From positions 20,416,177 through 20,480,176 of the forward strand of contig NC_085869.1 in NCBI RefSeq assembly GCF_034702125.1: a DNA stretch of 64,000 bases, in the 5' to 3' direction. How positions within the stretch are numbered: position 1 is the first letter of the stretch; each line of letters opens with the position of its first letter. The notes beneath the pieces were generated by a model, which did not search any database, was not told where the DNA came from, and saw nothing but the letters and a program-made list of their open reading frames with translations. Position numbers and translations under genes: made by a program. Source of the DNA: Engraulis encrasicolus (lineage: Eukaryota > Chordata > Actinopteri > Clupeiformes > Engraulidae). Shown one piece after another: positions 47,501 to 53,500 of the stretch.

Positions 47501-50500
47501 AACTCATGTCAGTCGAACAGTTCGCCAGCCATCTGCCCATGTCCCTTCTGAATCACATGGTGGAAGTCTTCAAGTTGAAACCTCTTGAGCAACTGTGGAA
47601 TGGTGCCACCAACGCCTCCTCCATTATCGACGCGATCCTGGCCGTGGCCCAAAACAACCAATACCTCTTGTCAGGCTTGTCCATGAATCAGTCCGATCCA
47701 TCCTCTGCTGACTTGGCAGCGCTAATCATGAATTGGCTCCAGAGCAGTCAATTCAACTTCACCATGCCCATTTCTGTCAATCTGAGTAACCTGGTGCTGA
47801 CATACTCTGCCGCACTGAGCACAACAGATCTGGCCTTCCTGGAGCAAGTTTGGAAGCCTCTCCTTAACCAGACCACTGAAGGCATCGCTCATTCAGTTCT
47901 AAGGGCCCTGATGCTCTTGAGGGAAGTGGTCAGTGCCTCTGACGGCGACATGTCTGAAGTAGTACTCACATATGTTCAGCAACTGCAAGCGTTTCTGGTG
48001 AGGGCTCTCCAACTTCAGCAGCACGTGCAACTCCTTCAGCCCGGTGGAGGCCTGGGTCCTGATCAGATCACGGACCTGAAACCAGTTGTCATGAGCCTCC
48101 TTCAGACACTGTCACCTCAGTCCGTCCAGGCCCTTAGTTCAGAAGGATGGTTGGCTGTAGTCGATGCTGTCCTGGGACAGCTTGGTCAGATGGTACCTCA
48201 TGAGCTTCAGGCACACTATCAACAGCTTGTCAATGACACTCGTGCTCTACTTGGTGCTCTAAATCACTGTCAGGCCACAGGTCAGGACTGTGCTGCTGGC
48301 GTGTCACAAGTTGGCCAGATTCTGTATCAGGTCTCCGAGACAATGCTAGCAGGTCCTAGTGCAGACCTAGTACTTCAGTTTGGTCCCATTCAAGGTAACA
48401 TGACCCTCGCTGTGGCTGAGAAATTGCTTGCTCTGTTCCGCCCTTGGACTAATGCATCGTCTTCACCACAGCTGACAATGGAATCCATCGCCAAGGTCCT
48501 CAATTTCCTTCAGACTATCACCTCCAAGCCCAACATCACAGTGGCAGGCCTCCAAGAAGCATTGAGCGCATCAAATCTTACCGTCCATGAGATCGACCAA
48601 ATTGCACAGTTAGCCATGAACCAATCTGTTTCCACCATCCTCTCCAACTTGACTGCCATAGCCAGTATCCAGCAATGCCTCACTGACCAAAGCCACAAAT
48701 TCATGAACTCCACTGAAGCTGGATGTGCTCTGAAGATGATTCAGACAGCAGTCTGGTTCCTTCAAACCTTCCCTTTACCCCAAGAGACAAAATCAAATTT
48801 AATGGCACTAAAGGTAATGATCCAAATTTTTACTGAAAGAATGGGAGAGGAGAATGTTGACCCTGGCAAACTGTCAGCGGAGATAATAAGACAAACCCTG
48901 CAGAACATCAAAGAGAGCCTAAAGAACCTCAACTACAACAACACTGACCAAATCATCAATGAGCTCAATGTTCTTGATGGCATTGTCCTTCTTGGTTTCC
49001 ATAACCAGTACCCTAATCATACCATAAACCAAACGATGATGGGAAACATGGACTATGCACAGAAAGTGTACAGTGAAATTGCACAGTGGTATCTGACAAA
49101 ATTGGAGAACGTGACCAGTGGCAGCATGTTTTCAGACCTCTTGTTTCCAATCTTTCGAATGACACAGCTGCAGATTGCATTGAATTTGGCTCAGTCTGAC
49201 TTTGACACGCTCGTGACCCAGCAGGTGGAAGGTCTCATCTCCCAAGTTCAGCTCCCCCTGGATGGACACGATCTGAGGCAAATCAGCCATGCGGTCATCA
49301 AAATACTTCACGCCCAACTGGATCTCATAAAATCGAACTTGAAACTGCAGCAGGACTACTATGACGCAATGGGCATACCCATGAACATCACGATACCAAA
49401 AGACATTGAGGAACAGATCATGATGTATGTCAACCTCACACAGAAGTGGACCTCAGACCCCAGTTTTACCTCTGCTTTGGCGACTCTTCTGCAATTGGAC
49501 TTAAACGCTCTGAACGGTACCGTTGACCAAGACATCCTTGAGCTCATCAAAGCCATGATTCCACTATTGTCAGTAGAGCAGCGGGCTTACCTCACTGCCA
49601 TAGAAAAGGCCTATGAGGCCCTAATCTATGCGGTGCAAGCAGCAAGTTATGGAGATGTCCAAAGTGCCAACTTCACCATGGCCATTGAGAATGCAGTTGG
49701 AGTCATCCTGGATGTGGTGTCCAGCGAGACCGGAGCCTTGCCAAACGCAACCATTCAACACATGGTGGCCGCCCTCAGCAGCTCTCTTCAGCTCATTCTC
49801 AATCCCAACATGAGCTATGCCCAGTCAGTCCACCTAAGCCTTGTGCTGTCAAGGAGTATGGAGGATGTGATCACAGCACTCTTGCCCAGAGAGGCAGCGG
49901 AGATACTGGCCCCTATGACCAATGTCATCACCACCTACTTTGAGGCCGTCTCTCAGCCTGCTGGACCTGATGCATGGAACATACTGTACGTGAGGCTGGA
50001 ATTTATTTTTAAACTGTAACTCTCTGTTAAGTAAGGACTTTTAACACAAAGCAAAGATATTTTCTACATTTCATTAAATATACTGTGGTAGTCAAGCAAT
50101 AGTATTACAGGGCAGTAAAAAGTCAATGCCAATGCAGCCAAACTAAGTGCACTGTCTTCGTTGGTTCCTCACAGAGTTGTCAACATCATGAAAGGACTGA
50201 TGCACACTTTACCACAGAATAATACTGTGCAGCCATATATCTCCCTGATTGTGGGAGCAATAGAGGACATCCTGAACTCAACACAGGGCAAGTGTAATTT
50301 CTTACTTTTTTGGTCTTATCGTAGGTAGTGAAATGAAAATGTCTAATAATCCATTAAGGAGGATCATTAATTTCCATTTACAGTAATCTAGCTGTACATT
50401 TTGAAGTTATTTATTCACAGTTTTTACAGATTTTGTCAACATAGTTCACAATATATTGCAGGGCTGTAATACTCTGAGTACAGACTCGGGCTCGAGTCCA

Positions 50501-53500
50501 AACTCAAGTCCGCATTTCTATGCAATTGGACTTATCTTGGACTTGCTATTAGTTGGACTTGGACTTGTCTTGGACTCGAACACTGGTCTTGCCAAATGAG
50601 GCTTTTGGACTCACGCGAATCAGTCTTAATTTTGTTTAGAAGGCTAACCTTCATTAAAGTGAGGCTCAAACCTCTTAGGACTTTTTTTGGACTTGACTAG
50701 TCTGGTCCTAGACTTGTCTTGGACTCTACAACGGAGGCCTTGACTACAGCCCTGATGTATTGTGTACCGGTATCTGTCATTAAATAGGTAACAGCCTGGG
50801 AGACTTGCAAAACATGGGAAATCTGACCATCCCCATGGCCATTGAGGGTGCAGTTGGAGTCATCCTGGAACTGGTGTCCAGCGAGACCGGAGCCTTGCCA
50901 AACGCAACCATCCAACACATGGTGGCCGCCCTCAGTAGCTCTCTACAGCTCATTCTCAATCCCAACATGAGCTATGCCCAGTCAGTCCACCTAAGCCTTG
51001 TGCTGTCTAGGAGTCTGGAGGATGTGATCACAGCACTCTTGCCCAGGGAAGTAGCGGAGATAGTGGCCCCCATGACCAATGTCATCACCACCTACTTTGA
51101 GGCCGTCTCTCAGCCTGCTGGACCTGATGCATGGAACATACTGTACGTGAGGCTGGAATTATTTTTTAATGGTTACACTCTGTTAAGTAAGGACTTTTAA
51201 CACAATACAATACTACGTAGTTATGCAAAGATATTTTCTACATTTAATTAAATATACTGTGGTAGTCAAGCAATACTATTACAGGGCAGTAAAAGGTCAA
51301 TGCCAATGCAGCCAAACTAAGTGCACTGTCTTCGTTGGTTCCTCACAGAGTTGTCAACATCATGAAAGGACTGATGCACACTTTACCACAGAATAATACT
51401 GTGCAGCCTTATCTCTCCCTGATCGTGGGAGCAATAGAGGACATCCTGAACTCAACACAGGGCAAGTGTAATTTCTTACTTTTTTGGACTATGGCTGAAC
51501 AATGTTGTATGTTTTTAAATATAATGTATTGGTACATTAAGTCTTATCGTAGGCAGTGAAATGAAAATTCCTAATAATCTATGAAGGATTCCATTTACAT
51601 CCATATACAGTAATCTAGCTGTAGATTTTCAAGTTATTCTTTCACAGTTTTTACGGATTTATTCAACATAGTTCACAATATATCACAGGGCTGTGTTACT
51701 CTGAGTACAGACTCTGGCTTGAGTCCAGACTCAAGTCTGCATTTCTATGAAATCGGACTTATCTTGGAGTTGCTATTAGTTGGACTCGGACTTGTCTTTG
51801 ACTCAGACACTAGTCTTGCCAAATGAGGCTTTTGGACTCACCCGAATCAGTCTTAATTTTGTTTAGAAGGCTAACCTTCATTAAAGTGAAGCTCAAACCT
51901 CTTAGGACTTTTTTTGGACTTGACTAGTCTGGTCCTAGACTTGTCTTTAACTCTACAATGGTGGGCTTCACTACAGCCCTGATATATTGTGTACCGGTAT
52001 CTGTCATTAAACAGGTAACAGCCTGGGAGACTTGTTTACTGGTACTTTACTACCTTACTGGTACTTGACTAGTCTTGTCTTGGACTCTACAACGGTGGGC
52101 TTGACCACAGCCCTGATGTATTGTGTAACGGTATCTGTCATTAAACAGGTAACAGCCTGGGAGACTTGCAAAACATGGGAAATCTGACCATCCCCATGGC
52201 CATTGAGGGTGCAGTTGGAGTCATCCTGGAACTGGTGTCCAGCGAGACCGGAGCCTTGCCAAACGCAACCATTCAACACATGGTGGCCGCCCTCAGTAGC
52301 TCTCTACAGCTCATTCTCAATCCCAACATGAGCTATGCCCAGTCAGTCCACCTAAGCCTTGTGCTGTCTAGGAGTCTGGAGGATGTGATCACAGCACTCT
52401 TGCCCAGACAGGCAGCGGAGATACTGGCCCCCATGACCAATGTCATCACCACCTACTTTGAGGCCGTCTCTCAGCCTGCTGGACCTGATGCATGGAACAT
52501 ACTGTACGTGAGGCTGGACTTATTTTTTTTTTAAACTGTTACAATACAATACTGTGTAATTAGATGAAGACATTTTCTACATTTAATGAAATTCATTATG
52601 GTAGGCATGCACTGCTTTTGCAGGGTAGTTAAAGGTCAATGCCACTACAGTAAAACTAAATGCACTATCTTCGTTGGTTCCTCACAGAGTTGTCAACATC
52701 ATGAAAGGACTGATGCACACTTTACCACAGAATAATACTGTGCAGCCTTATCTCTCCCTGATCGTGAGAGCCATAGAGGGCATCCTGACACAGGGCAAGT
52801 GTATTTTTTTTACTTTTATGGCTTAACAATGTTGTATGCTTTTGAAGATAATGTATTGGTACATGAAGTCTTATGATAGTTAATGAAAATCCCTAATGAT
52901 CCAATAAGAATCATCTTTGATTTCCATTTGCATTCATTGATATACAGTACATTTTGAAGTTATTTTTTCCCACTTTTTTGAATGCTTATGTCAACATAAT
53001 TTACAACCCATTGTGTTTCTGTCATTAAACAGGTAACAACAGCCTGGGAATCTTGCAAAACATTGGAAATCTGAACTTGACTGATATTGGCATGATTTCC
53101 GAGCAGGTATGTTATATACGCTATGATGTTGTTGTGCCATCTGGTAAAATGGATGTTGTTGCTGGTGAAATGGTGTTAAACCAGTTCATCCTCAGTAGAC
53201 ATAGATGACATATGACATACTTTAGACAAAGGGCCACCTGACAGCCACACCCTACTTCATCAAGTCTTTCTTTGCGAGGCTTTGTGCTGTACAGTAACCC
53301 TTCCCTGTTTTCCCCGTGTGGAAAGGTGTGAACCTTTCGGAACGTCACCTTTTGTGCAGCAGCACCCAGTTTACCTCTCCCCATGAATAAATATCCCCCC
53401 CTCACTCTCCTTCAAAAGCTTCTGACAACAGAAATCTATTAAATAGAAAGGAAAAAGAATCTGGCGCTACACGGATGTCTATTTTCTGTGTCAGTTTATT

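Follow-up and report, generated by a model that had tools for sequence, protein, structure and literature searches.

Few frame-neutral coding arrays of varying copy number have been well studied, and the KIV-2 repeat of LPA illustrates that such arrays can matter. In the sections of the KIV-2 literature used here, the repeat unit consists of two exons (160 and 182 nt) that preserve the reading frame and are arranged in tandem in 1 to >40 copies per allele, and the array shapes Lp(a), a strong genetic risk factor for heart disease (PMC6314250). In teleosts, the portion of the work on piccolo b considered here reports a zinc-finger exon amplified 8 to 16 times, for which amplification in independent lineages and unequal crossovers were proposed (PMC3484663). 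Among the ABCA transporters, mammalian ABCA2, ABCA12 and especially ABCA13 are described, in the part of the source drawn on here, as having abnormally large ECDs, and mammalian ABCA12 as moving glucosylceramides into skin lamellar granules (PMC13161189).

The window (the whole 64,000-nucleotide stretch of DNA analysed here) holds abca12 of the anchovy Engraulis encrasicolus, with exons 18 to 24 placed at 47331-53106 through the NCBI protein P0001. The name abca12, as opposed to ABCA13, was taken from the source annotations. A protein search with exon 18 matched P0001 at 100% identity, and the spliced exons 18 to 24 encode 1257 residues that, compared letter for letter, are unchanged in P0001 from residue 780, P0001 being a gene model very likely built on the same assembly and not independent proof. 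Its precomputed domains (PF00005, PF12698, PF23321 and PF26955) place an ABC ATPase and the membrane domains of ABCA in a single chain. Our last protein search returned 11 matches, none above 49% identity, and therefore no piece of an anchovy transcript. The features of the region are the following:

47331..49985, + strand: abca12 exon 18, giant (2655 nt), open frame with AG acceptor and GT donor, identical to P0001
49678..49985, + strand: cassette core copy 1, formed by the terminal 308 nt of exon 18, which correspond to the 3' portions of exons 20 and 22
49986..50174, + strand: intron 18, 189 nt, 95% identical to intron 20
50175..50287, + strand: exon 19, 113 nt, GC donor
50459..50754, no strand assigned: transposon-like element of 296 bp in intron 19, with ends CAGGGCTGT and ACAGCCCTG and 8-bp flanking repeats (1 mismatch)
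50788..51142, + strand: exon 20, 355 nt, chimeric, switching from exon 24-like to exon 18-like at ~50826-50834
51143..51348, + strand: intron 20, 206 nt
51349..51461, + strand: exon 21, 113 nt, GC donor
51686..51981, no strand assigned: second copy of the 296-bp element, inside intron 21; its 8-bp flanks show 2 mismatches
52015..52148, no strand assigned: 134-bp tandem repeat in intron 21, duplicating the exon 22 acceptor and first 20 nt (decoy acceptor)
52149..52503, + strand: exon 22, 355 nt, chimeric as exon 20
52504..52687, + strand: intron 22, 184 nt, 79-83% identical to introns 18 and 20
52688..52794, + strand: exon 23, 107 nt, an older version of exons 19 and 21 that has a 6-nt deletion
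52795..53032, + strand: intron 23, 238 nt, without the 296-bp element
53033..53106, + strand: exon 24, 74 nt, from which the 5' portions of exons 20 and 22 probably derive

The first-pass annotation had proposed that exons 19+20 and 21+22 form frame-neutral cassettes with matching phases, and both the exon anatomy and the skip tests bear this out. Each pair of 113 and 355 nt totals 468 nt (156 codons), begins and ends in phase 2 and contains no stop, with the end phases of exons 19, 20, 21 and 22 alternating between 1 and 2. The frame is kept when exons 19+20, 20+21 or 21+22 are skipped and lost when exon 19 or exon 20 is skipped alone. Acceptors are AG throughout exons 19 to 22 and donors are GT or GC, the GC donor being found in exons 19 and 21 and in the 107-nt exon 23. 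Identity reaches 97.3% between exons 19 and 21 and 98.3% between exons 20 and 22, and the repeat families in the window span 266-300 nt, far above chance length. An HMM located the cassette core three times in P0001, at residues 1553-1702, 1718-1858 and 1874-2012.

Several other repeats were seen in the window. The 134-bp repeat array at the end of intron 21 spans 51935-52168, and splicing at its upstream acceptor would lengthen the exon by 134 nt and change the reading frame. Positions 45964-47186, before exon 18, contain several direct repeats of 249, 128 and 86 nt (81-89%) that appear to be intronic. A (TG)88 run (53852-54027) stops ~12 nt short of the acceptor of the next coding exon (~54042-54187), the 3' end of which, with its GT donor, makes up a 40-bp minisatellite at 54165-54424 (6.5 copies, 98%); donor-like sites recur downstream, and reading past the first donor meets a TAA by eye. 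The sole neighbouring gene identified was represented by a GDP-fucose protein O-fucosyltransferase exon at 17360-17692 (PF10250, E 2.8e-19), which we take to be probably pofut2.

The cassette copies include intron sequence in tandem, so that the tandem amplification proposed earlier stands, but not as a clean copying of two exons. The first ~38 nt of exon 20 resemble exon 24, and the identity flips to exon 18 between ~50826 and 50834; the 355-nt exon thus looks like the inside of exon 24 fused in frame to the inside of exon 18. Microhomology at the switch is weak, covering 7 of 15 positions, which 6% of random pairs equal. Over 306 nt of the core, exons 18 and 20 differ by 14 changes, exons 18 and 22 by 10, and exons 20 and 22 by 6.

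The close similarity claimed for the introns holds for introns 18 and 20 (95%) and 19 and 21 (91%) but not for intron 22 (79-83%) or intron 23 (~75%). Expressed as divergence, this is 5% for introns 18/20 and 9% for introns 19/21, as against 17-21% between intron 22 and introns 18/20 and 24-25% between intron 23 and introns 19/21. The corresponding JC distances are 0.05-0.10 for a younger duplication versus 0.20-0.30 for an older one. The 296-bp insertion, which has inverted ends and which we presume to be hAT-like, is present in introns 19 and 21 and absent from intron 23. Because of this absence and the intron divergence, the data suggest an older, then a younger duplication, the simplest order being a first duplication, the insertion and a second duplication. 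The amplification can therefore be called recent, as first proposed, for one of the two duplications, but the other looks several times older by its introns. Ka was below Ks in all six copy pairs, and the open frame was kept. In the older pair, exons diverge less than introns (7 synonymous changes per 100 sites versus 21% in introns; binomial P ~1e-4). In this one rough test, the likeness of the exons fits exchange between copies; constraint on synonymous sites could also explain it.

To compare copy number across fishes, modules were counted with a 150-column HMM of the core (cut-off at least 100 bits) on 89 predicted proteins, all gene models, from 79 species. From 124 listed proteins, 35 were left out (further isoforms, assemblies and species, a mole ABCA3 and a cobra protein); the larger protein search listed 120 of 681 matches. 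Several of the counted proteins are truncated at the N-terminus, and their counts are minima. Among the matches listed, 27 of the 79 species had at least two modules (range 2-9), 48 had one and 4 had none. At the level of gene models, the expected variation in copy number between species is thus supported, including among four clupeoids, with 1, 2, 3 and 5 modules. Within the Clupeiformes, Denticeps and Coilia have one each, Engraulis three and Sardina five, and Alosa has two in one isoform model and one in two others. Hence the ectodomain of the protein seems, from these predicted sequences, to change in length from lineage to lineage.

Carps and suckers carry 2-9 modules, mostly with a unit of 225 residues that may, judged from two ORF fragments alone, be a single exon; the exception is a truncated Phoxinus model with one module. 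In Carassius gibelio, the lengths of the isoform models P0011, P0012, P0044, P0046, P0047 and P0049-P0057 differ by steps of exactly 225, that is, by whole cassettes. Loaches have 3-9 modules of alternating types; the two types in P0038 and P0039 are arranged like an A-B dimer amplified as a higher-order unit. Three modules with a unit of 167 were found in sea breams, and two in Dicentrarchus (unit 235), Scophthalmus (221), Tautogolabrus (292), Labrus (251), Paramormyrops (908) and Lepisosteus (780), the first module being incomplete in the last two genera. For Lepisosteus, the older model P0096 has one module and the newer P0099 two; therefore, annotation or assembly matters. Between lineages, both unit length and junction are in most cases different. 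Engraulis and Sardina share a unit length of 156, with fusion points a few residues apart, and the Alosa junction is different.

A tree was built from 134 units above 100 bits, found in 50 of the 89 proteins. Copies clustered by species in Engraulis (support 1.0), Sardina (0.997) and Alosa (0.936). For 8 of 10 carp and sucker proteins, the terminal copy fell into one clade (0.842), and the inner copies grouped within species in Puntigrus and were mixed in Labeo/Cirrhinus and Carassius/Cyprinus, many supports being low. Such a grouping is as expected of an array that continually turns over. Copies also intermingled between Pagrus and Acanthopagrus and between Misgurnus and Paramisgurnus, and because of this mixing the arrays are probably shared within each of these genus pairs. 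Elsewhere, different unit lengths and junctions and species-grouped copies point to independent amplification in several lineages; the number of events is unproven.

Internal repeats of at least 60% identity were detected in 49 of the 89 proteins among the matches listed. From these 49, we picked 32 proteins for 27 lineages by our own grouping; some lineages may share events, and 27 should not be read as the number of proven independent events. When the repeats were placed on Coilia by best hit, duplication coverage peaked at residue 1660, which is the exon 18/19 junction, in 19 of the 27 lineages. Random shifts gave a mean maximum of 5.9 over the whole protein and 7.9 over the ectodomain only, and none of 2000 reached 19 under either null. 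This mapping placed no duplicated segment past residue 2460; a looser mapping extended as far as 2807 in some carps and loaches, and one P0104 block remained unmapped. Pygocentrus, catfishes, Oncorhynchus, Xyrichtys, Anabas, Oreochromis, Siniperca and Micropterus have duplications elsewhere in the extension (~560-1500 or 1960-2300). Since other lineages duplicate other parts, the whole extension is, on these alignments, repeat-prone, with the exon 18/19 junction as its peak. Other parts of the ectodomain extension were also seen to be internally duplicated in P0015, P0063, P0076, P0106, P0115, P0120 and others.

No relative turned up when exon 18 was searched against the PDB (best E 0.1). The whole Coilia protein matched solved ABCA4, ABCA1 and ABCA7, the best stretches starting at ~residue 3160. 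A single-module model (193 residues, 26 sequences) had a mean pLDDT of 79.6 and eight helices; a two-module model (371 residues, 15 sequences), of low confidence (pLDDT 58), repeated the helices with six long ones per 156 residues. Fold searches gave no significant match. Each of the two 156-residue cassettes contains five N-glycosylation sequons. The cassette is modelled as helical hairpins in the ectodomain extension, which could form a stalk. In Coilia P0003, residues 1446-1701 and 2563-2823 show remote similarity (hhalign 92%). The ectodomain may be built of ancient repeats.

Taken together, we consider it probable that Engraulis abca12 carries a true tandem array of exon cassettes in the N-terminal ectodomain extension, at a recurrent hot spot of tandem duplication where unequal crossover or conversion has multiplied and homogenised the units and lengthened the ectodomain. 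In a first tandem duplication, an internal point of exon 24 would have become fused in frame to an internal point of exon 18, creating the new 355-nt exon. A transposon-like element would then have entered intron 19, and a second unequal crossover between the repeats would have copied exons 19-20 into 21-22, with exchange between copies keeping the exons alike. An added unit would lengthen a helical, glycosylated ectodomain and leave the frame and the transporter core undisturbed, owing to its 156 codons, matched phases, six long modelled helices and five sequons. We predict that copy number varies within the anchovy.

A broader version, which we put forward tentatively, is that ray-finned fishes in general have a recombination hot spot at the end of the giant exon 18. 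The helical-repeat nature of the ectodomain would make in-frame back-fusions into this exon tolerable, and the result would be a protein-scale VNTR, with an ectodomain length polymorphic within populations and maybe selected at the skin or mucus surface. Zebrafish Abca12 has a role in skin.

Less likely than the preferred reading, in our view, is a single array in the clupeoid ancestor, from which Engraulis and Sardina inherited the 156-residue unit and Coilia and Alosa lost copies, concerted evolution mimicking species-specificity. Concerted evolution would indeed yield an identical tree, and the unit is exactly 156 in both genera; however, their fusion points differ by a few residues, the Alosa junction is different, and Coilia, which we take to belong to the anchovy's family, has one module. 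That some copies do not reach the protein, the cassettes being skipped or alternatively used, appears unlikely. Besides the three exon pairs named above, the frame also survives skipping of all four cassette exons or of exons 22+23, and Carassius gibelio has isoform models of 5045, 5270, 5495, 5720 and 5945 residues, in steps of 225, the four counted ones carrying 2, 5 and 6 modules. Yet the Engraulis model includes all copies, and isoform prediction from short reads is presumably unreliable when copies are near-identical. An assembly or haplotype artefact is very improbable: a single Engraulis assembly was used, and copies are 99-100% identical at the protein level in Scophthalmus, Dicentrarchus and Tautogolabrus, but among the three Engraulis copies the introns are 5-25% divergent and have private indels, two of the copies carry the 296-bp insertion, a 134-bp repeat is present, and other species have duplicated different units at the same spot.

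The preferred reading, a tandem array at a recurrent hot spot, invites comparison with the known systems as far as the sources cited at the outset describe them. Like LPA KIV-2, the abca12 cassette is a two-exon, frame-neutral tandem unit; its 468 nt are modelled as helical, whereas the KIV-2 unit is a kringle. For KIV-2, variation between persons is proven and alters protein size, whereas for abca12 the variation lies between the gene models of species. Genes of this kind are easily mis-assembled or mis-modelled. As in piccolo b, a coding repeat has been amplified in several teleost lineages, but the piccolo b unit is a single exon and that of Engraulis abca12 comprises two exons with breakpoints inside exons. 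Unlike in piccolo b, unit length and junction in abca12 mostly shift between lineages around one intron. Fish abca12 can be likened to mammalian ABCA13 and ABCA12 by its large ectodomain, a likeness in size. Recurring around one intron in many fish lineages, mostly with different unit boundaries, the abca12 arrays provide replicated natural experiments on the origin, expansion and homogenisation of coding repeats, and they bear on the purpose of the giant ectodomain in ABCA12-type lipid transporters.
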